Assembly (NCBI GenBank): GCA_016213205.1
Contig: JACRAZ010000077.1
Coordinates: forward strand, 124,001-188,000
Direction of reading: 5' to 3'
Origin: Burkholderiales bacterium
Lineage (GTDB): Bacteria > Pseudomonadota > Gammaproteobacteria > Burkholderiales > Burkholderiaceae_C
DNA: 64,000 nt
In this document: piece after piece, positions 30,694 to 43,210 of the stretch
Layout: each line of letters starts with the position of its first letter
How positions within the stretch are numbered: position 1 is the stretch's first letter
The notes under the pieces: model-generated
The model's database searches: none
Seen by the model: the letters and a program-made list of their open reading frames with translations, nothing else
Told to the model about the DNA's origin: nothing
Position numbers and translations under genes: made by a program

Positions 30694-31242
30694 ATGCTGG
30701 AGACCCGTCGCATCAAGCACTGCCGCCACTGCGGAGCCGCGGTGGCCTATCGCGTGCCGGACGACGACAACCGCGAACGTGCCGTCTGCCCGGCCTGCGC
30801 GACCATCCATTACGAGAACCCGATCAACGTGGTCGGCACCTTGCCGGTGTGGGGCGAACAGGTGCTGCTGTGCCGCCGCGCCATCGAGCCCCGTTACGGG
30901 TTCTGGACCCTGCCCGCGGGCTTCATGGAACTGGGCGAAACCGTGGCCGACGGCGCGCTGCGCGAAACCGTGGAAGAAGCCGGCGCCAAGGTGGAACTGC
31001 AAGGCCTGTTCACGATGTTGAACGTGGTGCGTGTGGGCCAGGTGCACCTGTTCTACCGCGCCCGCATGCTCGACACCTCGCTGGACCCCGGCCCCGAGAC
31101 GATCGAGGCACGCCTGTTCCACGAGCACGAGATCCCCTGGGACGAGATCGCCTTCCGCACCGTGCGCGAGACCCTGCAGCACTACTTCGATTGCCGCCGG
31201 CGTGGCGGCGACTATCCCCTGCACTGCGGCGATATCAGCTGA
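30694..31242 (+). CDS. Nudix hydrolase with N-terminal zinc ribbon
   Basis: A 182-residue protein. The zinc-ribbon CRHCG (about residues 10-14) pairs with CPACA (about 32-36), followed by a Nudix domain. The Nudix box reads GFMELGETVADGALRETVEEAGA (about 79-101), matching GX5EX7REUXEEXGU. The arrangement resembles NAD-pyrophosphatase-like or ADP-ribose-type zinc-ribbon Nudix proteins, but the substrate cannot be fixed. A TACACT -10-like element lies at about 30676, giving a short leader. Its 3' end overlaps the end of the minus-strand GGDEF-EAL gene by 8 bp. Confidence 0.88.
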   Translation: MLETRRIKHCRHCGAAVAYRVPDDDNRERAVCPACATIHYENPINVVGTLPVWGEQVLLCRRAIEPRYGFWTLPAGFMELGETVADGALRETVEEAGAKVELQGLFTMLNVVRVGQVHLFYRARMLDTSLDPGPETIEARLFHEHEIPWDEIAFRTVRETLQHYFDCRRRGGDYPLHCGDIS

Positions 31243-33298
31243 AGTCGGCGGCCATCGAACGCACCGCCGGGCCGGTGGCGGCATCGAAACCCAGGTTCCA
31301 CAGCAGGGTGAGTTCGTCCTCGGTGCTCACGCCTTCGGCGGTGATGGACAAGCCCACCGCCTGCACCAGCTGCACCAGCCCGCGCAGGTAGCGGCGTGCA
31401 TCGCTGGCATGGGCGTCGGCCGCGCCGCGGATGTAGCGCGCATCGATGCGCACGCAGTCCAGGCCCAGCTCGAGCAGGCGCGGGATGCGCGCCAGGCCAT
31501 CCCCCGCGTGCTCCAGGCTGAGGTAGACGCCCAGCGGGCGCCAGCGGCGTGCGGCCTCCTGCACCAGCAGGGGCCGGTCCAGCGCCAGCGACTCGGGCAG
31601 ATCGATCCACAGCCGCGTGGCCGCCTGCGGCGAGGCCTCCAGGTGGTGCGCGACAACCGCCATGAAGTCGCTGACACCGAGCGACTGCGCCGCAAAGTTG
31701 ATGCAGCGCGCCTGCCCATCCTGCTCGATCGCACGCAGTGCGGCCGTCAATGCCGCCTCGTCCACCGCGGCGCTCAGCCGCGCCCGGGCGGCCTGTGCCA
31801 GCCAGCGGCGCGCGGGCTCGAAGGCGCCGCCCGGCTCCAGTTGCACGCGCATCGGGCAGTCCAGGTGGAGCACCCGGCCATCGGCGGTGCACACGGGGTA
31901 GGCACCGAGTTCGATCTGACCCTGCTCCAGGGCATGGGTGAGGCGTTGCTGCCACTGCGCCTCGCCACGCGGCGCGCCCTGGGTGTCGTCGGCCAGGCAG
32001 GCGGCGGAGAACGCATGTTCGGTCTCGGCGTGGGCCAGCGCCTCGTCGGCCAGGGCCAGGGCCTGCTGCGCCGAGACCGTGCCATGCAGCTCGACCGCGC
32101 CGATCGAGACGCCCGCAGCGGCATCGATCGTGACCAGCGGCACCCTCAGGGCATGCACCAGCGCCTGCGCCGTTTCTTCCGCCATGCCCCCGACCGGCAG
32201 CACGAGTGCGAAATCGGCGCCATTGAGACGGCCGGCGAAACAACCGTCCGAGCGGCGCGGATAGCTGTCCAGCGTCTGCGCCACGGCCTGCAGCACGTGG
32301 TCGGTGGCGGCATGGCCGAGGCGGCGGTTCATGCCGGCCAGGTCGCGCACGCGCAGCAGCAGCAGGCCCAGCTGGGCCTGGGGTGCGGCGCCGGCGAGCA
32401 GCTGCTCGAACTGGGCCAGGAAATGGCGCCGCACCGGCAGGCCGGTCAACGCGTCGGCATGGGCCTGGCGGCGCAGCACCTCGAGCTGGGCCGACTGGGT
32501 GTCGAACATGGCCTGCAGCCGTTCCACCAGCAGGTTCATGCTCGAGGTCAGGGGCTGCAGCTCAGGCAGCACGGGTTCGGCCACCTGCAGGTAGCGCCCG
32601 TCGGACAAGGCGTTGGCCTGGCGCACCGCATCGGCCAGCGCGCGCCGGAGCACCTTCACCCGCCAGGCAGCACCACTGAGCACCACGGTGCCCAGCATGG
32701 CCAGCACCAGGGCCGAATCGGACAGGCTGCGCCACAGGGCATCGGCGGCGTCGGCCGTTTGTGATTCGACCAGCACGCTGCCGGCAGGCTGTTGCGGCGA
32801 CCGGCCGGGCCATGCGGCCGTGTTCGCGGCCGGTTGCAGGCCCAGCAGATCGAGGTACCAGCGTGGCGCCTGCGCGGGCTGGACCTCGGCATGGCGTTGC
32901 CAGACCACACGGCCGCTCGCATCGCGCACCTGCAGCCGGGCCAGGTGGGCGGCCGACAAGTGCGCCAGCAGCAGGGCCTCGCGCTGCTCCGGCGTGGCGG
33001 CGGCATCACCACCGAGCGCCAGCGCCAGCCAGCGGGCGCTTTCGGCGTTCTGGCGTTCGAGCTGCTGCTGCACCGCATCGCGCGCGCCCCACTGCTGCAC
33101 CACCAGCGCTGCCAACAGGCACAGCAGCACCACGGCGCCCAGCAGGCCGCTGACGCGTGCGTGCAGCGCCAGCCGGTGGCGAGGGTCCGAGCGCTGCCGC
33201 TCGGCCACCGCCGTGGGCCGCCCCAGTGCGGGCGGTGCGACGGAGATTTCGGGCACGAAGGGCATGGCGTGGCGATTCAAGCGCCGGGCAAGGCGCAT
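31235..33298 (-). CDS. LapD-like membrane protein with degenerate GGDEF and EAL domains
   Basis: A 687-residue inner-membrane protein. TM1 lies at about 49-67 (LLGAVVLLCLLAALVV), followed by a periplasmic domain of about 125 residues, TM2 at about 196-213, and a HAMP-like linker (LLVERLQAMF). A GGDEF domain (about 280-440) has NGADF in place of GGDEF. An EAL domain (about 450-685) has LDCPMRV in place of the EALxR motif. Late EAL landmarks survive partly (CVRIDARYI, GLSITAEGVS). Both catalytic motifs are lost, so it is probably a c-di-GMP receptor like LapD rather than a cyclase or phosphodiesterase. LapG/LapA-type partners are not in the window. The start may instead be the ATG at about 33265. 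Confidence 0.82.
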   Translation of the reverse strand: MRLARRLNRHAMPFVPEISVAPPALGRPTAVAERQRSDPRHRLALHARVSGLLGAVVLLCLLAALVVQQWGARDAVQQQLERQNAESARWLALALGGDAAATPEQREALLLAHLSAAHLARLQVRDASGRVVWQRHAEVQPAQAPRWYLDLLGLQPAANTAAWPGRSPQQPAGSVLVESQTADAADALWRSLSDSALVLAMLGTVVLSGAAWRVKVLRRALADAVRQANALSDGRYLQVAEPVLPELQPLTSSMNLLVERLQAMFDTQSAQLEVLRRQAHADALTGLPVRRHFLAQFEQLLAGAAPQAQLGLLLLRVRDLAGMNRRLGHAATDHVLQAVAQTLDSYPRRSDGCFAGRLNGADFALVLPVGGMAEETAQALVHALRVPLVTIDAAAGVSIGAVELHGTVSAQQALALADEALAHAETEHAFSAACLADDTQGAPRGEAQWQQRLTHALEQGQIELGAYPVCTADGRVLHLDCPMRVQLEPGGAFEPARRWLAQAARARLSAAVDEAALTAALRAIEQDGQARCINFAAQSLGVSDFMAVVAHHLEASPQAATRLWIDLPESLALDRPLLVQEAARRWRPLGVYLSLEHAGDGLARIPRLLELGLDCVRIDARYIRGAADAHASDARRYLRGLVQLVQAVGLSITAEGVSTEDELTLLWNLGFDAATGPAVRSMAADFS

Positions 33299-33320
33299 CT
33301 GAGATCGCTATCGGCCGCCT

Positions 33321-33339
33321 GCCGCTGAACTTGAGCGGC
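33321..33339 (-). terminator. possible terminator hairpin after lpdA
   Basis: GCCGCT and AGCGGC pair around a 7-nt loop in the 74-bp gap between lpdA and the next minus-strand gene. There is no T-run, so its strength is uncertain. Confidence 0.3.
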
Positions 33340-33372
33340 GCCCCAGGGCGCGCGGCGTGCAAACCGGACGAA

Positions 33373-35166
33373 TCAGCGCCGTGCGGGCGGCAGATCGGTG
33401 CAGCTGCCGTGCGCGGCCTCGGCCGCCAGGCCGATGCTCTCGCCCAACGTGGGGTGCGGGTGGATGGTCTTGCCGATGTCCACCTCGTCGGCGCCCATTT
33501 CGATGGCCAGCGCGATCTCACCGATCATGTCACCGGCATGGGTGCCGACGATGCCGCCACCCACGATGCGGTGCCCGCCTTCCGGCGAGGCGTCGAACAG
33601 CAGCTTGGTGAAGCCCTCGTCGCGCCCATTGGCGATGGCACGGCCCGAGGCCGTCCATGGGAACAGGCCCTTCTTGACGGCAATGCCGCGCGCCTTGGCC
33701 TCGTCTTCGGTCAGGCCGACCCAGGCCACCTCGGGATCGGTGTAGGCAACGCTCGGGATCACCCGGGCATCGAACCGCGCCTTGCCGTCGCCGGCCGCCA
33801 CCTCGGCCGCCACATGCGCCTCGTGCACCGCCTTGTGCGCGAGCATGGGCTGGCCGACGATGTCACCAATGGCGAAGATGTGCGGCACGTTGGTGCGCAT
33901 CTGCACGTCCACCGGGATGAAGCCGCGCTCGCTCACCACCACGCCGGCCTTGTCGGCACCGATCTTGCGGCCGTTCGGGCTGCGGCCCACGGCCTGCAGC
34001 ACCAGGTCGTACAGGCCGTCGCTCGCCTTGCCGTCCGCCGATTCGAACCTGACGCGGATGCCCTCGGCGGTGGCCTCGGCGCCCACGGTCTTCGTCTTCA
34101 GCAGGATGTTGTCGAAGCGCGGTGCATTCATCTTCTGCCACACCTTGACGAGATCACGGTCGGCGCCGGTCATCAGCCCGTCGAGCATTTCCACCACATC
34201 CAGGCGTGCGCCGAGCGTGGAGTACACCGTGCCCATCTCGAGCCCGATGATGCCGCCGCCGATGATCAGCATCTTCTTCGGCGCCGTGCTCAGCTGCAGC
34301 GCGCCGGTGGAATCGACGATGCGCGGGTCGTCCGGCAGGAAGGGCAGGCGCACCGCCTGCGAGCCGGCGGCGATGATGCACTGCCCGAAGCGCACGGTCT
34401 GCGTCTTGCCGGTCTTGTCCTGCCCGTCGCCGGTGGTCTCTTCCACCACCACATGGTGCGGATCGGCAAACGCGCCGTAGCCCCGCACCACCGTCACCTT
34501 GCGCATCTTGGCCATCGCCGCCAGGCCGCCGGTGAGCTTGCCGATCACCTTGTTCTTGTGCGCCAGCAGCTTCGGCAGCTCGAGCTTCGGCGTACCGAAC
34601 TCGACACCGAGATCAGCGAAGTGCTTGACCTCGTCCATCACCGCAGCCACATGCAGCAAGGCCTTCGACGGGATGCAGCCCACGTTCAGGCACACGCCGC
34701 CCAGCGTGGCGTAGCGCTCGACCAGCACCACCTTCAGGCCGAGGTCGGCGGCGCGGAACGCAGCCGAATAGCCGCCAGGGCCGCCGCCCAGCACCAGCAG
34801 GTCGCAATCGAGGTCGGCGGTGCCGCCGTAACTGGCAGCCGCGGGCGCGGGCGCGGCCATGGCAGCAGGCACTGCGGCGGCCACCGCGGCCGGTGGCGGT
34901 GCAGCGGCAGCGGCCGCTGGCGCAACGCCCTCCCCTTCGAGCACCAGCAGCAGGCTGCCCTCGTTGATCTTGTCGCCGAGCTTGACCTTGAGTTCCTTCA
35001 CCACGCCGGCGGCGGCGGAAGGAATCTCCATCGAGGCCTTGTCGGATTCCACCGTCACCAGGCTTTGCTCCACGGCCACCGTGTCGCCCGGCTTCACGAG
35101 GATCTCGATCACCGCCACATCCTTGAAGTCGCCGATGTCGGGCACCTTCACGTCGATCAGCGCCAT
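33373..35166 (-). CDS. lpdA: dihydrolipoyl dehydrogenase (PDH E3) with N-terminal lipoyl domain
   Basis: A 597-residue E3 that re-oxidises dihydrolipoyl groups of pyruvate dehydrogenase with FAD and NAD. An extra N-terminal lipoyl domain (residues 1-80, lipoyl-Lys in [11 protein letters not shown]) and an Ala/Pro linker precede the flavoprotein. FAD-binding motif [16 protein letters not shown], redox disulfide in [20 protein letters not shown]-binding [12 protein letters not shown], and C-terminal HAGDMIGE. The ATG at 35166 is preferred (AAGGG 9 nt upstream; same [14 protein letters not shown] start as E2), but the one at 35175 overlaps the previous stop as ATGA and remains possible. Last gene of aceE-aceF-proteasome-like-lpdA. 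Confidence 0.96.
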
Positions 35167-35171
35167 CGCCT

Positions 35172-35744
35172 TCATCCCTTCAGTTTCAATGTGTGGGCCT
35201 TGATCGGCCCGGCAGAGTTCTTGTCGAATTCACAGCCCGCGCGCACGCCGGCGTCCACCACTTCGCGCGCACTCTTGGCCTTGTCCCAGGCCGCGAACAT
35301 CGCGCCCAGCGCAAACGCGCGGCCGGAGCCGATGGCCCAGAAGCGGTCGAACTCGAACACCTCGCGGTACGAGTAGACGCCGAAGATGCCGCTCGCATTG
35401 GCGATCAGCACCGTGAACTGGCTGCTCTCGTAGGGGTCGGCGTCTTCTTCCTTGGTGTTCAGGAAGAAGTGCTCCTTGAGCTTGGGGTGCAGCTTCAGGA
35501 AGGTGTCGAACACCTCGTCGCGCGAGTGCAGCTTCAGCTCGTCGGGCGCCAGGCCACCCAGGGCCTTGCGCAGCACCGGAAAGTGCGCCGTGGTGCCGGC
35601 CATGCCGACCCACGAATCGCCGATGCGGAACACCTTGTCGTTGGCCTCGTAGCCATGCGCCAGGCGCGTGTCGCCAAAGGTCACCAGCGCATCGGCGGCA
35701 ATGGCCACCTGCCCGTTCTTGCGGGCCACGCAGATCGTCGTCAC
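35172..35744 (-). CDS. proteasome-type Ntn-hydrolase, beta-proteobacterial proteasome homologue (BPH-like)
   Basis: A 190-residue threonine-type Ntn hydrolase related to HslV and the 20S beta subunits. After removal of the initiator it begins [10 protein letters not shown], so Thr1 would be the nucleophile. The Asp17 equivalent is in VAIAADAL, the Lys33 equivalent in ANDKVFRIG, and the late Ser in [16 protein letters not shown]. The sequence best fits the group called betaproteobacteria proteasome homologue. The GTG start at 35744 overlaps the aceF stop as GTGA, which indicates translational coupling; the longer frame back to 35909 is aceF shadow. No HslU or other AAA+ ATPase is nearby. It lies between E2 and E3 of pyruvate dehydrogenase; its role there is unknown. 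Confidence 0.85.
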
Positions 35745-37090
35745 AGCAGCACGCGGCGGAAGTCGGCCAGGATGCCGGCGAGGTAGGCGTTGAAGCGCGC
35801 GGCCGAGGCACCGTCGATCACGCGGTGGTCCCACGAGAGCGACAGCGGCAGCATCAGCCGCGGCACGAACTGCTGGCCGTCCCAGCGCGGCTCGGTGGCG
35901 CTCTTGCACACGCCGAGAATCGCGACCTCGGGCGCGTTGATGATCGGCGTGAAGTAGCGCCCGCCGATGCCGCCCAGCGAGCTGATCGAGAAGCAGCCGC
36001 CAGTCATGTCGGCCGGCCCGAGCTTGCCCTCGCGGGCCTTGGCGGCCAGCGCGCTCATCTCCTGGCTGATCTGCAGGATGCCCTTCTGGTCGGCGTCCTT
36101 GATCACCGGCACCACCAGGCCATTGGGCGTGTCCGCCGCGAAGCCGATGTGGAAGTAGTTCTTCAGCACCAGCTGTTCACCATCGAGCGAGGCGTTGAAC
36201 TCCGGGAACTTCTTCAGCGCCGCGACGCAGGCCTTGATCAGGAAGGCCAGCATCGTGACCTTGACGCCGGACTTCTCGTGCTCCTTGTTCAGCTGCACGC
36301 GGAAGGCTTCGAGCTCGGTGATGTCGGCGTCGTCGTGGTTCGTGACATGCGGGATCACGACCCAGTTGCGGTGCAGGTTGGCGCCGCTGATCTTCTTGAT
36401 GCGCGAGAGGTCCTTGCGCTCGATCGGGCCGAACTTCGCGAAGTCCACCTGCGGCCAGGGCAGCAGGCCGGGGAAGGCGCCGCCCGTGGCTGCGGCGGCT
36501 GGGGCCTGGGCCTTCTGCGCCGCCGTCTGCGTGCTGCCGGCCATCACGCGCTTGACGAATTCCTGCAGGTCATCCTGGGTGATGCGGCCCTTCGGGCCCG
36601 TGCCGCGCACTTCGTCCAGGGGCACGCCGAGCTCGCGCGCGAAACGCCGGATCGACGGCGAGGCATGCGGCAGCGCGCCCTTGGGCGCCACGGGCTCGTG
36701 GGGTGGCAGGGCCGCGGTGGGTGGGATGCGCTCATGCGCCACAGCGGCCACCGCAACGGCCGGTGGCGGCATCGCGGCCACGGCAGGCGCCGGCGCGGCT
36801 GCGGCGGCCGCAGGCGCCGGGGCGGGCGCGGGGCCCGGCGCGGCGCCGGCGCCATCGGCCTCCAGCATCAGCAGCAGCGTGCCCTCGTTGACCTTGTCGC
36901 CCAGCGCGACCTTGAGCTCCTTCACGGTGCCGGCGTGGCTGGAGGGGATCTCCATCGAAGCCTTGTCGCTTTCCACCGTGATCAGGCTCTGCTCGGCCTT
37001 GATCACGTCACCCGGCTTGACCAGCAGTTCGATGATGGCCACGTCCTTGAAGTCGCCGATATCCGGGACCTTCACTTCCACCAATGCCAT
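35741..37090 (-). CDS. aceF: pyruvate dehydrogenase E2, dihydrolipoyllysine acetyltransferase
   Basis: A 449-residue E2 core. A single lipoyl domain occupies residues 1-80 (lipoyl-Lys in [13 protein letters not shown]), followed by an Ala/Pro-rich linker, a peripheral-subunit-binding domain (ASPSIRRFARELGVPLDEV then RGTGPKGRITQDDL, about 150-185), and the acetyltransferase domain. The active site is SLSWDHRVIDGASAARF near the C-terminus. E. coli AceF has three lipoyl domains; having one here is common in betaproteobacteria, where E3 carries another. It is 29 bp after aceE, and its stop overlaps the start of the proteasome-like gene. Confidence 0.96.
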   Translation of the reverse strand: MALVEVKVPDIGDFKDVAIIELLVKPGDVIKAEQSLITVESDKASMEIPSSHAGTVKELKVALGDKVNEGTLLLMLEADGAGAAPGPAPAPAPAAAAAAPAPAVAAMPPPAVAVAAVAHERIPPTAALPPHEPVAPKGALPHASPSIRRFARELGVPLDEVRGTGPKGRITQDDLQEFVKRVMAGSTQTAAQKAQAPAAAATGGAFPGLLPWPQVDFAKFGPIERKDLSRIKKISGANLHRNWVVIPHVTNHDDADITELEAFRVQLNKEHEKSGVKVTMLAFLIKACVAALKKFPEFNASLDGEQLVLKNYFHIGFAADTPNGLVVPVIKDADQKGILQISQEMSALAAKAREGKLGPADMTGGCFSISSLGGIGGRYFTPIINAPEVAILGVCKSATEPRWDGQQFVPRLMLPLSLSWDHRVIDGASAARFNAYLAGILADFRRVLL

Positions 37091-37119
37091 GGGTTGTCTC
37101 CGCGCCTGTTCCGTTGGGT

Positions 37120-39846
37120 TCAGGCGTACAGCGGGTTGATCTTGTCGGTGTTGAGCTTGTACTTCGCGATCGCCTCGGCCACCTTGGCCACCGGCACGCT
37201 GCCTTCATCGGCCAGCGATTTGAGCGCCGCCACCACGATGTAGTGGCGGTTGATCTCGAAGTGTTCGCGCAGTTTGCTGCGGAAGTCGCTGCGGCCGAAG
37301 CCGTCGGTGCCCAGCACCTTGTAGCTGCGGCCCTTGGGCATGTAGGCCCGGATCTGCTCGCAGTAGTTCTTGATGTAGTCGGTGGAGGCCACCACCGGCC
37401 CGGCATGCGCACCGAGCTGCTGCGCGACGAAGGGCACGCGTGGCGCCTCGGTCGGGTGCAGCAGGTTCCAGCGCTCGGTGTCCTGGCCGTCACGTGCCAG
37501 CTCGTTGAAGCTGGGGCAGCTCCAGACCTTGGCGGCCACGCCCCATTCGGATTCGAGCAGGGTCTTGGCGGCCATCGATTCACGCAGGATGCTGCCCGAG
37601 CCGAGCAGGTTCACCACCGGGGCCTTGGCCTTGCGACCCTGCCCAAGGTCGGCATCCTGCAGCAGGTACATGCCCTTGATGATCTGCTGTTCGGTGCCGG
37701 GCTGCAGGCCGGGCATCGGGTAGTTCTCGTTGAGCAGCGTGATGTAGTAGTACACGTTGTCCTGCTGTTCCACCATGCGCTTGAGGCCGTGGTGCAGGAT
37801 CACGCCGACCTCGTGCGCGAAGCTGGGGTCGTAGCTCACGCAGTTGGGGATGGTGCCGGCCAGCACGTGGCTGTGCCCATCCTCGTGCTGCAGGCCCTCG
37901 CCATTGAGCGTGGTGCGGCCCGAGGTGCCGCCCAGCAGGAAGCCGCGGGCCTGCATGTCGCCCGCGGCCCAGCACAGGTCGCCCACGCGCTGCAGGCCGA
38001 ACATCGAGTAGTAGATGTAGAACGGCACCATGATGCGGTTATTCGTCGAATACGACGTGGCCGCGGCGATCCAGCTGCTCATGCCGCCGGCCTCGTTGAT
38101 GCCCTCCTGCAGGATCTGGCCGTCGGTGGCCTCGCGGTAGTACATGACCTGGTCCTTGTCGACCGGCGTGTACTTCTGCCCTTCGGGGTTGTAGATGCCG
38201 ATCTGGCGGAACAGCCCCTCCATGCCGAAGGTGCGCGCCTCGTCCACCAGGATCGGCACGGTGCGCGGGCCGATCTGCTTGTCGCGCAGCAGCGTGGTGA
38301 GGAAGCGCACGTAGGCCTGCGTGGTGCTGATCTCGCGGCCCTCGGCGGTGGGGTCGAGCACGGCCTGGAAGGTGGCGAGGTCCGGCACGGCCAGCTGCTC
38401 GTCGGCCCGGGTGCGGCGGTGCGGCAGGTAGCCGCCCAGCGCCTTGCGGCGCTCGTGCAGGTAGCGCATTTCCGGCGCATCGTCGGACGGCTTGTAGAAC
38501 GGGATGCCCTGGGCCAGCTGCTCGTCGCTGATGGGGATGTTGAAGCGGTCGCGCATCGCCTTGATGTCGTCGTCGGTCAGCTTCTTGGCCTGGTGCGCGG
38601 TGTTCTTGCCCTCGGCGGCCTTGCCCATGCCGAAGCCCTTGACCGTCTTGACCAGCAGCACCGTGGGCTGCCCCTTGTGGTTGGCGGCGCGGTGGTAGGC
38701 GGCGTACACCTTCTGCGGGTCGTGGCCGCCACGGTTGAGGCGCCAGATGTCGTCGTCGCTCATCCTGGCCACCATCTCCAGCAGCTTGGGGTGCTGGCCG
38801 AAGAAGTGCTTGCGCACGAAGGCGCCGTCGTTGGCCTTCATGGCCTGGTAGTCGCCATCGACGGTGTCCATCATCACCTTGCGCAGGATGTGTTCCTTGT
38901 CGCGCGCGAGCAGCGGGTCCCAGTAGCCGCCCCACAGCAGCTTGATGACGTTCCAGCCCGAGCCGCGGAACTCGCCCTCGAGCTCCTGGATGATCTTGCC
39001 GTTGCCGCGCACCGGGCCGTCCAGGCGCTGCAGGTTGCAGTTGATCACGAAGATCAGGTTGTCCAGTTTCTCGCGCGCGGCCAGGCCGATGGCGCCCAGG
39101 CTCTCGGGCTCGTCCATCTCGCCGTCGCCGCAGAACACCCACACCTTGCGCTTGCTGGTGTCGGCAATGCCACGCGCGTGCAGGTACTTCAGGAAGCGCG
39201 CCTGGTAGATGGCCATCAGCGGGCCCAAGCCCATCGAGACGGTGGGGAATTGCCAGAACTCGGGCATCAGCTTGGGGTGCGGGTAGCTGGAGAGTCCCTG
39301 GCCGTCGACTTCCTGGCGGAAGTTCAGCAGCTGCTGCTCGCTGATGCGGCCTTCCATGAAGGCGCGGGCGTAGACACCGGGTGCGCTATGGCCCTGGATG
39401 TAGAGCAGGTCGCCACCGTGGCCTTCATGTTCGGCATGCCAGAAGTGGTTGAAGCCGGCGCCGAACATGGTGGCCACCGACGCGAACGAGGAAATGTGGC
39501 CCCCCAGGTCGCCACCATCGGCCGGGTCCAGCCGGTTGGCCTTGACCACCATCGCCATGGCGTTCCAGCGCATGTAGCCGCGCAGGCGCTCCTCGACGTC
39601 CAGGTTGCCGGGGCAGCGCTCTTCCTGGTCGGTGGGAATCGTGTTCACGTAGGCCGTGTTGGCCGAGAACGGCATGTCGATGCCGGCCTGGCGGGCCTCG
39701 TCGATCAGCTGCTCCAGCAGGAAATGCGCGCGCTCGGGGCCTTCGGTGGCAATCACCGCGTCGAGCGCCTCGATCCACTCGCGGGTTTCCTGCGCATCGG
39801 CATCGTTGGCGGCGGCGCCGAGGAATGAGTCGGGCACTGCGGACAT
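37120..39846 (-). CDS. aceE: pyruvate dehydrogenase E1, homodimeric type
   Basis: A 908-residue homodimeric E1 that decarboxylates pyruvate using thiamine diphosphate and passes the acetyl group to lipoyl-E2. Visible landmarks are EERCPGNLDVEERLRGYMRWNAMAMV, GGDLGGHISSFAS (about residues 110-122), the ThDP-binding FCGDGEMDEPES followed by NLIFVINCNLQRLDGPV, and DEARTFGMEGLFRQIGIYNP. First gene of the aceE-aceF-proteasome-like-lpdA unit. The start ATG has AGGAGACACACC upstream. A sensor kinase/response regulator pair is divergent, 170 bp away. Confidence 0.97.
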   Translation of the reverse strand: MSAVPDSFLGAAANDADAQETREWIEALDAVIATEGPERAHFLLEQLIDEARQAGIDMPFSANTAYVNTIPTDQEERCPGNLDVEERLRGYMRWNAMAMVVKANRLDPADGGDLGGHISSFASVATMFGAGFNHFWHAEHEGHGGDLLYIQGHSAPGVYARAFMEGRISEQQLLNFRQEVDGQGLSSYPHPKLMPEFWQFPTVSMGLGPLMAIYQARFLKYLHARGIADTSKRKVWVFCGDGEMDEPESLGAIGLAAREKLDNLIFVINCNLQRLDGPVRGNGKIIQELEGEFRGSGWNVIKLLWGGYWDPLLARDKEHILRKVMMDTVDGDYQAMKANDGAFVRKHFFGQHPKLLEMVARMSDDDIWRLNRGGHDPQKVYAAYHRAANHKGQPTVLLVKTVKGFGMGKAAEGKNTAHQAKKLTDDDIKAMRDRFNIPISDEQLAQGIPFYKPSDDAPEMRYLHERRKALGGYLPHRRTRADEQLAVPDLATFQAVLDPTAEGREISTTQAYVRFLTTLLRDKQIGPRTVPILVDEARTFGMEGLFRQIGIYNPEGQKYTPVDKDQVMYYREATDGQILQEGINEAGGMSSWIAAATSYSTNNRIMVPFYIYYSMFGLQRVGDLCWAAGDMQARGFLLGGTSGRTTLNGEGLQHEDGHSHVLAGTIPNCVSYDPSFAHEVGVILHHGLKRMVEQQDNVYYYITLLNENYPMPGLQPGTEQQIIKGMYLLQDADLGQGRKAKAPVVNLLGSGSILRESMAAKTLLESEWGVAAKVWSCPSFNELARDGQDTERWNLLHPTEAPRVPFVAQQLGAHAGPVVASTDYIKNYCEQIRAYMPKGRSYKVLGTDGFGRSDFRSKLREHFEINRHYIVVAALKSLADEGSVPVAKVAEAIAKYKLNTDKINPLYA

Positions 39847-39913
39847 GGTGTGTCTCCTGTTCCGGTCCGTTGGCAGTAGGGGGCGGCGCGGAGTGTGGCA
39901 TAAACGCCGCCAC

Positions 39914-39942
39914 TTTTCAAATAGTGCGAGCTGATTTCATAT
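39914..39942 (+). promoter_or_regulatory. weak candidate promoter for the histidine kinase gene
   Basis: In the 170-bp region between aceE and the kinase, TTTCAA (39914-39919) and CATATT (39937-39942) are 17 bp apart. The same region holds ATTA-CGA-TAAT and a second TAAT (GATAAT at about 40002, 10 nt before the kinase ATG), so the true start could be later. No clear aceE promoter is evident. Confidence 0.3.
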
Positions 39943-40016
39943 TACGATAATCGCAGCCTGGAAGGGGGCTGTGGCGCGGTCGCCCGCACCACGCCGCACC
40001 GGGATAATCCGCCCTC

Positions 40017-42587
40017 ATGACAAGTTCCGACGCCAGCACCTCCTCGCTCGGCCGACGCATGCTGGGCCGCTGGTGGCGCCGGCAATCCCCGGCGCGCCAG
40101 GACCGCTTTGCCACGCTGGCGCCGCTGGTGTCCGTGCTGCTGTTCCTGGCCGCCATCATTTCGGCCTTCTGGTACTTGCGCAACGAGGAAATAGAGCGCG
40201 AGTCCGAAGCGGTCAAGCGCGACACCGAGATCGCCCAGCAGCAGATCCGCCTGCGGCTGATCGAGAACCAGGAACAGCTGGTGCGCATGGCACGCGAGAT
40301 CGTCACGCGCGAGCTGGAAACACCGAACTTCCTGGCCCAGGCCACGCGCTTCACCTCCGACCGGCCCGAGATCATCCAGATCAGCTGGCTGGGCGCCGAC
40401 CGGCGCATCCGCGCGCGCCAATCCAGCTTCGGCGAGCGCGACGAGTGGGCCATGCCGCCGAAGGCCGGCGCCTCGATCATCGCGCCACCGGACGAAGCCA
40501 ACTGGGCCTTCATCGCGGCGCGCGACGTGCGCCAGCCGATGTATTCGCGCCCCTACAAGGACGCCACCGGCGCCATGGTGTTCCAGCTGCACGTGCCCTT
40601 GCTGGACCGGGGCAGTTTCTCCGGCGCGCTGGTCGTGGAGTACTCCATCGACGTGCTGCTGCGGCACTTCGTGCCGGCCGAAGTGACCCGGCGCCATGCC
40701 GTGGCCGTGATCGACGAGCACGAGCGTGTGATCGCCAGCTCGGTGACGGCGATGCCCGGCCACACGCGGCAGCCGGCCTCCATTGCACACGATGTGCCCT
40801 TTGCGCCCACCGCCAATGGCCTGGTGCTGCGTGGCACCGGCTACCGCACCTCCGTCGGCCTGATCGGCAACACGCTGTTCTGGATGGTGGTGGCGCTGTC
40901 GGTGCTGACGGTGTGGATGCTGCTGGGCACCTGGCGGCACATGCGCCGGCGCAGCCAGATCCAGGGCGCGCTGGTCAAGGAAACCAACTTCCGGCGGGCG
41001 ATGGAGAACTCCATGCTCACCGGCATGCGCGCGATGGACCTGGAAGGCCGCGTCACCTACGTGAACCCGGCCTTCTGCGCGATGACCGGCTTCACCGAAT
41101 CCGAGCTGATCGCCCGCCTGCCGCCCTACCCGTACTGGCCGCACGACCGTATCGAGGAGAACACCCGCCTGCTGCAGCAGGAACTGCAGGGCCGCAGCCC
41201 GGCGGGCGGCATCGAGGTGAAGGTGATGCGCAAGAACGGCACGCTGTTCGATGCACGCATGTACGTCTCGCCGCTGGTGGACCCGCGTGGCCAGCAGACC
41301 GGCTGGATGACCTCGATGACCAACATCACCGAAGCCAAGCGCATCCGCGACCAGCTCTCGGCCTCGCACGAGCGCTTCACCACCGTGCTGGAGGGGCTGG
41401 ACGCCGCGGTGTCGGTGCTCTCGGTGCAGCAGAGCGAGCTGCTGTTTGCCAACCGCTCGTACCGGCTGTGGTTCGGTGCCGAGGCACGCGGCCACGCGCT
41501 GCTGGCCAGCGGCGCCGGCCCGGCAGTGCCCTACGTCGCCGAACCCGACGACGCGGTGGACAGCCTCTCCGGCCTGCCCACGCAGGAGCTGGCCGGCATG
41601 GGCACCAACCCGCGCGAGGTGTACGCGCACACGCTGGACAAGTGGTTCGACGTGCGCTCGCGCTACTTGCAGTGGACGGACGGCCGGCTGGCCCAGATGC
41701 TGATTGCCACCGACATCACCGCCCGGCGCCGCGCCGAGGAACAGGCCGCAGCACAGGCCGAGAAGGCACAGGTGTCGAGCCGCCTCATCACGATGGGCGA
41801 GATGGCCTCTTCGGTGGCGCACGAGTTGAACCAGCCGCTCACCGCCATCACCAACTACTGCAACGGCATGATCTCGCGGGTGAAGGCCGAGACCATCAAG
41901 CAACCCGACCTCATCGCCGCGCTCGAAAAGACCGCACGCCAGGCCGAGCGCGCGGGCCAGATCATCCACCGCATCCGCGCCTTCGTGAAGAAGAGCGAAC
42001 CGCAGCGCCAGCCCGCGCACGCGAAGGACATCGTCGAGGACGCGGTCGAACTCGCCAGCATCGAACTGCGCCGCCGCAACGTGGCGATCCACCACTACGT
42101 GGCGCAGCGCCTGCCGGTGCTGCGCTGCGACCCCATCCTGGTGGAGCAGGTGCTGCTGAACCTGCTGAAGAACGCCGCCGAGGCGATCGACAACGCCAAG
42201 CTGCCCGCCGCGCGCCGCCACATCGAGTTGCGCGTGGTGCCCCGCCACACGCCGGACGAAGGTGGCGTCATCGAGTTCAGCGTCACCGACATGGGCCCCG
42301 GCTTGCCCGAAGAAGTGATCAACCGGCTCTACGAGGCCTTCTTCTCCACCAAGGCCGAAGGCATGGGCATCGGCCTGAGCCTGTGCCGCTCGATCGTCGA
42401 GTCGCATCGGGGACGTATCAAGGCGCAGAACATCTACAATGGCGCCTCTGTCGTGGGGTGCCGGTTCGCCTTCACCCTGCCCGTCGAAACCACTGCGCGG
42501 CACGAGGAGACAACGCTGCCACCCGCACCCCGTGTTGCAGCGCCCGACGCCGACGGCAGCCCAGCTGCGAAGACCACGTCCTCATGA
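40017..42587 (+). CDS. PAS-domain sensor histidine kinase (FixL/DctB-like)
   Basis: An 856-residue membrane kinase. TM1 lies at about 36-56 (LAPLVSVLLFLAAIISAFWY), followed by a periplasmic Cache-like domain of about 230 residues, TM2 at about 285-305, and two PAS domains (FRRAMENSMLTGMRAMDLEGRV; FTTVLEGLDAAVSVLS). The HisKA box is MASSVAHELNQPLTAITNYC (His about 603), followed by N-box LLNLLKNAAEAID and G boxes DMGPGLP and GMGIGLSLC. The response regulator gene overlaps its stop as ATGA. Divergent from aceE, so a control link to pyruvate dehydrogenase or pyruvate-related sensing is plausible but unproven. Confidence 0.93.
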   Translation: MTSSDASTSSLGRRMLGRWWRRQSPARQDRFATLAPLVSVLLFLAAIISAFWYLRNEEIERESEAVKRDTEIAQQQIRLRLIENQEQLVRMAREIVTRELETPNFLAQATRFTSDRPEIIQISWLGADRRIRARQSSFGERDEWAMPPKAGASIIAPPDEANWAFIAARDVRQPMYSRPYKDATGAMVFQLHVPLLDRGSFSGALVVEYSIDVLLRHFVPAEVTRRHAVAVIDEHERVIASSVTAMPGHTRQPASIAHDVPFAPTANGLVLRGTGYRTSVGLIGNTLFWMVVALSVLTVWMLLGTWRHMRRRSQIQGALVKETNFRRAMENSMLTGMRAMDLEGRVTYVNPAFCAMTGFTESELIARLPPYPYWPHDRIEENTRLLQQELQGRSPAGGIEVKVMRKNGTLFDARMYVSPLVDPRGQQTGWMTSMTNITEAKRIRDQLSASHERFTTVLEGLDAAVSVLSVQQSELLFANRSYRLWFGAEARGHALLASGAGPAVPYVAEPDDAVDSLSGLPTQELAGMGTNPREVYAHTLDKWFDVRSRYLQWTDGRLAQMLIATDITARRRAEEQAAAQAEKAQVSSRLITMGEMASSVAHELNQPLTAITNYCNGMISRVKAETIKQPDLIAALEKTARQAERAGQIIHRIRAFVKKSEPQRQPAHAKDIVEDAVELASIELRRRNVAIHHYVAQRLPVLRCDPILVEQVLLNLLKNAAEAIDNAKLPAARRHIELRVVPRHTPDEGGVIEFSVTDMGPGLPEEVINRLYEAFFSTKAEGMGIGLSLCRSIVESHRGRIKAQNIYNGASVVGCRFAFTLPVETTARHEETTLPPAPRVAAPDADGSPAAKTTSS

Positions 42588-43210
42588 GCTTGATCCCGAA
42601 AAAAGGCACCGTCTACGTCGTCGATGATGACGAGGCCGTGCGCGATTCGCTGCAGTGGCTGCTCGAAGGCAAGGATTACCGCGTCAAGTGCTTCGACTCG
42701 GCCGAATCCTTCCTCTCCCGCTTCGACCCGCGCGAGGTGGCCTGCCTGATCGCCGACATCCGCATGGAAGGCATGAGCGGGCTCGAGCTGCAAGACCGCC
42801 TGCTCGAACGCAAGAGCCCGCTGCCGGTGGTGTTCATCACCGGCCATGGCGACGTGCCGATGGCGGTCACCACCATGAAGAAGGGCGCGATGGATTTCAT
42901 CGAGAAGCCCTTCAAGGAAGACGACCTGCTGGGCCTGGTCGAGCGCATGCTCGATTCGGCGCGCGCGGCCTTCAGCCAGCACCAGGAACAGGCCAGCCGC
43001 GACGCCCTGCTCTCGCGCCTGACCACCCGCGAAGCCCAGGTGCTCGAGCGCATCGTCGCCGGTCGGCTGAACAAGCAGATCGCTGATGACCTCGGCATCA
43101 GCATCAAGACGGTCGAGGCGCACCGCGCCAACATCATGGAAAAGCTCAACGCCAACACCGTGGCCGACCTGCTGAAGATCGCGCTCGGCGCGAACACCGC
43201 AAAAGCCTGA
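42584..43210 (+). CDS. FixJ/NarL-type response regulator
   Basis: A 208-residue regulator. The receiver domain has the acidic pair VVDDDEAVR, phospho-Asp58 in LIADIRMEGMSG and Lys in FIEKPFKED. The C-terminal LuxR-type HTH is LTTREAQVLERIVAGRLNKQ followed by IADDLGISIKTVEAHRAN. The architecture matches FixJ/TtrR. The ATG overlaps the kinase stop (ATGA), so the two are translationally coupled and presumably form a cognate pair. Targets are unknown; the adjacent pyruvate dehydrogenase operon is an obvious candidate. Confidence 0.94.
   Translation: MSLIPKKGTVYVVDDDEAVRDSLQWLLEGKDYRVKCFDSAESFLSRFDPREVACLIADIRMEGMSGLELQDRLLERKSPLPVVFITGHGDVPMAVTTMKKGAMDFIEKPFKEDDLLGLVERMLDSARAAFSQHQEQASRDALLSRLTTREAQVLERIVAGRLNKQIADDLGISIKTVEAHRANIMEKLNANTVADLLKIALGANTAKA

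Follow-up and report, generated by a model that had tools for sequence, protein, structure and literature searches.

The window analyzed here, 64,000 nt of contig C57 (G000:C57:124001-188000), carries in its pyruvate dehydrogenase (PDH) operon a gene whose 190-aa product is, on alignment, an intact member of the known betaproteobacteria proteasome homologue (BPH) family. The family, its fold and its PDH-operon location are already known from the available text of Fuchs et al. 2018 (PMC5777263); what is new here are the counts of BPH neighborhoods and of BPH presence among sampled genomes. We favor a general role in proteostasis, with expression coupled to growth, BPH having been placed once in the PDH operon and inherited there, and we give this reading a probability of about 0.55. 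It is preferred over a role dedicated to PDH, which we regard as unlikely.

An intact BPH gene between aceF and lpdA

The reading frame comprises 190 codons on the minus strand, from GTG (35744-35742) to TGA (35174-35172), which bears out the initial annotation of a gene between aceF and lpdA whose start overlaps the aceF stop as GTGA (Table 1). The same annotation put lpdA at most 5 bp downstream, and this holds for both start candidates: one ATG overlaps the BPH stop (ATGA, 35175-35172), and a second, at 35166, lies 5 nt past it and would give a protein of 597 aa. The N-terminal lipoyl domain of LpdA is a Biotin_lipoyl match at residues 8-79. A longer BPH frame starting at GTG 35909 was ruled out because Thr1 would be buried; Met, Val or Leu followed by Thr stands at the position of GTG 35744 in all 82 PDH-linked rows of our alignment (two duplicates included). 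Read from GTG 35744, Thr is the second residue and becomes the nucleophile once Met is removed, as is predicted.

Table 1. Features of the PDH operon in the window
Feature	Position	Strand	Evidence
aceE (pdhA), pyruvate dehydrogenase E1, 908 aa, upstream of aceF	37120..39846	-	TIGR00759, 1439 bits, above cut-off
aceF (pdhB), pyruvate dehydrogenase E2, 449 aa, one lipoyl domain	35741..37090	-	TIGR01348, 616.5 bits, above cut-off
GTGA overlap, aceF stop TGA (35743-35741) / BPH start GTG (35744-35742)	35741..35744	-	sequence
BPH (betaproteobacteria proteasome homologue), 190 aa, GTG start, mature N-terminus Thr-Thr-Ile	35172..35744	-	Pfam Proteasome, 5ovu
BPH acidic pore loop, residues 97-107, [11 protein letters not shown]	35424..35456	-	alignment
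lpdA (pdhL), dihydrolipoyl dehydrogenase E3, 600 aa	33373..35175	-	TIGR01350, 470.8 bits, above cut-off

A scan of 32900-40100 for the sigma-70 consensus found no promoter-like sites, and the same interval held one terminator-like site as compared to 3.9 in shuffled sequence. Divergent from aceE, at 40017-43210 (+), are a PAS/HisKA sensor kinase and a LuxR-type response regulator that might regulate the PDH operon locally. A GGDEF-EAL protein with a LapD/MoxY periplasmic domain is encoded directly 3' of lpdA on the same strand (31235-33298, -). Anti-phage defense was rejected as there was no PADLOC match.

The protein matched the Pfam Proteasome family at 29.9 bits (cut-off 22.4). Its best solved relatives were the BPHs of Cupriavidus metallidurans (Cm-BPH, Rmet_1198, 5ovu; E 6.5e-75) and Thiobacillus denitrificans (Td-BPH, 5ovs, also 5ovt; E 7.2e-36), with full-length matches of 254 and 127 bits as compared to 31 bits for the best HslV chain. 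Cm-BPH, from a different organism, is 63% identical to the window protein and shares its active-site residues and acidic pore loop. Td-BPH is 40% identical with the same active-site residues, but it has one extra residue ahead of the catalytic Lys and is encoded in an argG rather than a PDH operon (PMC5777263, available text). Mature Thr1, Asp17, Lys36 (equivalent to proteasome Lys33), Gly49 and Ser139 align with both crystallized proteins, and the Thr1, Asp17, Lys33-equivalent and late Ser noted initially in an HslV-like protein are thus all present. The elongated pore loop that marks BPHs is also there; its equivalents in the crystallized relatives are acidic, according to the same source.

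HslV (1m4y, 1g3i, and the copy in this genome at C41:40042-40569) belongs to the same Pfam family and likewise has an N-terminal Thr, but its match to the window protein was weak (1m4y, E 1.6e-6). The two HslV equivalog models scored 30.9 and 31.6 bits against cut-offs of 157.75 and 137, the acidic loop is longer than in HslV, and hslU is not a neighbor. We therefore rejected HslV mis-annotation, and the BPH assignment made initially is confirmed. The genuine hslV lies on another contig beside a genuine hslU (C41:38702-40030).

The same active-site residues are kept in BPHs outside the PDH operon. In the 82 PDH-linked rows Thr1, Lys and Gly were invariant, while Asp17 was found in 79 (Glu in 3) and Ser139 in 74 (Thr in 8). 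The 106 other rows from the order all had Asp, Lys and Gly, with Thr1 in 103 (Ser in 3) and Ser139 in 97 (Thr in 2, Ala in 7). Mean net charge of the pore loop was -4.1 in PDH-linked and -6.5 in Hsp33-linked BPHs, and the lower acidity of the former could reflect a different substrate.

The Ser-1 BPHs of the order, L189, L229 and L230, make up 3 of 118 loci. G148 and G115 each carry a Thr-1, argG-linked BPH as well as a long-branch second copy, L229 and L230 respectively. In the available text of PMC5777263, Ser-1 is ascribed to all BPHs outside Betaproteobacteria, and no mention of it inside Betaproteobacteria was found there.

Neighborhoods and inheritance of BPH

A 1994 report on the Alcaligenes eutrophus PDH cluster is said to have placed an unassigned ORF (ORF3) between pdhB and pdhL. 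In Ralstonia eutropha, pdhA1 (H16_A1374), pdhB (H16_A1375) and pdhL (H16_A1377) leave one tag skipped between the last two (PMC3734047, available text), which fits a gene there, as in the window. Three operon contexts of BPH are in print: argG, the three PDH genes (C. metallidurans) and Hsp33 (PMC5777263, available text).

To these we added a survey of 300 sampled genomes of the window's order, using a profile of ten BPHs at E<=1e-12. BPH occurred in 117 of them and in 64 of 140 genera (119 genes), and we read the neighborhoods of all 118 BPHs outside the window's own genome. Twelve adjoined aceF/lpdA. The other 106 comprised 51 next to Hsp33 (43) or an Hsp15-like gene (8, without Hsp33 in the flank examined), 40 next to argG/yajQ (one of them yajQ alone, at a contig end) and 15 with other genes or short flanks. 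To call neighbors we applied a home-made ORF rule rather than a gene finder, and each similarity cluster took its name from one representative; Hsp33, argG and yajQ passed NCBIfam cut-offs, and the Hsp15 representative scored 92.9 bits against a cut-off of 148, hence “Hsp15-like”. In the window's genome an Hsp33 match (C57:8424-9362; 212.9 bits, below the cut-off of 244) lies some 115 kb ahead of the window and about 150 kb from BPH.

Within the window's family, 74 of the 299 sampled genomes, spread over 39 of 126 genera, had BPH, and every one of the 74 had it beside aceF and/or lpdA. At 70 of these loci both neighbors were within 600 nt on the same strand; the other four were G384 (BPH in pieces), G494 (split over two contigs), G507 (ending at a contig edge) and G401. 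Five other families (f3, f7, f9, f20 and f31) contributed ten sampled BPHs, all PDH-linked, and no other BPH was found there. The distinct PDH-linked total is thus 74 + 10, with two family genomes also present in the order sample. Among the best 80 of 121 close relatives, a set picked by similarity and not used for frequencies, every BPH was followed by an lpdA match and all but one were preceded by an aceF match (80 and 79), the exception starting at a contig end; the closest named genera in this set were Aquabacterium, Ideonella, Rhizobacter and Polaromonas, which makes Burkholderiales the probable order. The stable PDH location claimed at the outset thus stands within one clade and fails for the 106 order loci elsewhere. 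Likewise, the rare linkage to aceF/lpdA that was named as evidence against the claim is what we see outside this clade and the reverse of what we see inside it.

For the junctions we used 80 distinct PDH-linked loci (70 from the family and 10 from other families), leaving out G384, G401, G494 and G507. BPH overlapped aceF by 4 nt at 19 loci and by 1 nt at two, and was separated from it by 0-30 nt at 38, 31-100 nt at 11 and more than 100 nt at 10. GTG starts occurred at 15 of the 80 loci, 12 of these among the 19 four-nt overlaps. The GTGA overlap behind the translational coupling first suggested is present at the window locus, but overlap was ruled out as a conserved signature. Shine-Dalgarno cores of at least 4 preceded 37% of 149 BPH, 34% of 59 aceF and 100% of 32 aceE starts.

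BPH is under purifying selection. Median dN/dS was 0.26 for BPH, 0.25 for aceF, 0.23 for lpdA and 0.19 for aceE, values that are meaningful only as a similarity among the four genes as they come from a simple method (pairwise Nei-Gojobori) applied to related pairs of high-GC genes. They cover the 51 of 80 close-relative loci with all four genes, and 671 of 1275 pairs with dS of 0.15-1.0 per gene. Given the close linkage, short spacing and selection, BPH is a maintained gene that is probably co-expressed.

On a tree of 188 BPH rows (two duplicates included) the PDH label required one change. On a thinned tree of 143 rows with an HslV outgroup the PDH group was one clade (SH-aLRT 94) covering six families, and all contexts together required 12 changes as compared to a shuffled mean of 79.5. 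Taken at face value, the rooted tree has the Hsp33/Hsp15-like neighborhoods coming first; this order is only suggestive because the HslV outgroup branch is very long (length 10) and leaves the root unsure.

Presence within the family is patchy. The profile search gave no BPH match in 225 of the 299 genomes, yet aceF was present in 147 of 150. Nineteen of the 30 best-scoring aceF loci were without BPH, and 18 of the nineteen had an lpdA match no more than about 54 nt from that of aceF. A DUF4253 gene fills the junction of the remaining one (L304:759-1454, -). The seven top aceF matches, L304-L310, which align from profile position 2 and so cover more of the lipoyl region, were all without BPH, though seven loci are not enough to carry much weight.

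On an aceF tree of 100 rows (81 with and 19 without BPH), presence and absence required at least 14 changes, 6 of them forced by strong branches; the shuffled mean was 17.6, and 3 to 5 of 500 shuffles were as low as observed. We read the absences as repeated losses since the PDH-linked BPHs form one clade, with the qualification that parsimony alone cannot separate loss from regain, that the BPH-less sample is small and was chosen by aceF score, and that many branches are weak. At L335 (G384:C94, about 1761-2051) BPH lies in two pieces with the middle unmatched, still between aceF and lpdA; this is either a gene decaying in place or an assembly fault.

We also compared the PDH subunits themselves. 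In a crude comparison of medians, the E2 linker was much alike at 66 loci with and 16 loci without BPH (length 53 versus 53.5, hydrophobic fraction 0.082 versus 0.068), and a tie of BPH to this linker was rejected. A tie to the E3 lipoyl domain was also rejected, as the domain occurs in loci with and without BPH alike wherever the N-terminus was covered.

Candidate functions of BPH

Published work on BPH comes mainly from Fuchs et al. 2018, who cite Valas and Bourne 2008, and the statements that follow are limited to the available text of this paper (PMC5777263). BPH is descended from HslV and forms a heptameric double ring with an epoxomicin-reactive Thr1. No peptidase activity was measurable, with BPH inert on standard peptides and casein. 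No PDH subunit and no HslU was recovered in C. metallidurans pull-downs, and BPH left carbonylation patterns unchanged in protease-deficient E. coli. A later survey describes new homologues without co-occurring AAA+ partners and BPH as having no known unfoldase (PMC8665760, available text), in agreement with the lack of an assigned ATPase noted initially. No later functional study was among the matches listed in a literature largely without subscription papers, and PMC4008487 and PMC9166356 (available text) contribute nothing about this gene.

The reading we favor is as follows. By analogy with its relatives, BPH would assemble into a barrel of two heptameric rings that encloses the Thr1 sites in an acidic chamber. 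It would be made together with the PDH subunits, its translation presumably coupled to aceF, and most probably serves general proteostasis as a peptidase that is either ATP-independent or unusually selective. Its gene would have moved once, long ago, into an operon of the growth phase and been inherited vertically since; the R. eutropha PDH genes are induced in growth phase (PMC3734047, available text). BPH would then share the expression of PDH without having it as sole client, the probable benefit being growth-linked dosage. PDH is not an obvious client because BPHs beside Hsp33 and argG keep the same active-site residues, because most PDH operons of the family are without BPH, and because the published pull-downs were negative. 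The general peptidase role itself is unproven since the 2018 study found no activity and unchanged carbonylation (PMC5777263, available text). Also against our reading are the less acidic pore loop, which could mean a different substrate, and the location at PDH genes throughout the clade, which is compatible as well with BPH being functionally tied to PDH.

In such a tie BPH would trim or clear E2/E3 that is damaged, misassembled or wrongly lipoylated, and co-translation would keep its amount in step with the complex; we regard this as unlikely. It is consistent with the constant adjacency to aceF and/or lpdA (74/74 and 10/10), with 59 of 80 junctions overlapping or within 30 nt, with purifying selection and with the less acidic pore loop; however, linkage alone does not support a PDH-specific role. 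Against it stand the family genomes that have aceF and no BPH match, the closely joined aceF and lpdA at BPH-less junctions, the similar E2 linkers, the retention of active-site residues in BPHs without PDH linkage and the pull-downs without PDH subunits (PMC5777263, available text). We therefore find no support for the initial proposal that BPH takes part in the turnover of PDH or of lipoylated proteins, given the 106 order loci elsewhere, the 225 genomes without BPH and these published negatives, the unchanged carbonylation among them. A more elaborate version is less probable still: in one clade, BPH captured by the PDH operon would look after the lipoyl machinery of E2/E3 without ATP and in matched dose, in place of an older partnership with Hsp33, a redox chaperone, and lineages losing BPH would protect lipoylated proteins otherwise.

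We give marginally less credence to BPH acting on a few substrates as a specific processing enzyme or a ligase, in the manner of connectase, rather than as a degradative protease. This would account for a protein that is inert on standard peptides and casein though its Thr1 binds epoxomicin (PMC5777263, available text), and connectase is a ligase of the same superfamily (PMC8665760, available text). On the other hand, BPH keeps the H1/H2 helices and the barrel that are missing in monomeric connectase (same survey), and no substrate is known.

HslV was found in 17 of 20 genomes with BPH and in 53 of 60 without it (one of the latter matches partial; Fisher p 0.70), so its presence is independent of BPH and replacement of HslV by BPH is not supported. 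The genome of the window has one hslU over cut-off, the one beside hslV, and further AAA_2 ATPases. The lack of a companion AAA+ gene is a mark of BPHs, and matches to hslU, AAA_2 (PF07724), AAA (PF00004; 150 of 207 candidates scored) and Lon_C (PF05362) were absent from C57 at E<=0.001. For the four models searched, this agrees with the initial statement that HslU, Clp and Lon are not nearby. A second proteolytic core partnering HslU or another AAA+ unfoldase would fit descent from HslV, the ATPases in this genome and the 17 genomes with both proteins, but it is very unlikely given the seven-fold barrel and the absence of HslU from pull-downs (PMC5777263, available text), the three BPH-bearing genomes without an HslV match, the independence of the two proteins and the absence of an AAA+ match from C57.

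Any account of BPH must fit an apparently single entry into the PDH operon, with none elsewhere in the clade's sampled genomes, and purifying selection. It must also fit the absence of BPH from about three in four sampled genomes of the family, and a remainder of the order in which BPH lies mostly by Hsp33/Hsp15-like genes or argG. Natural relatives with and without BPH, both with intact PDH operons, provide the material for comparison.
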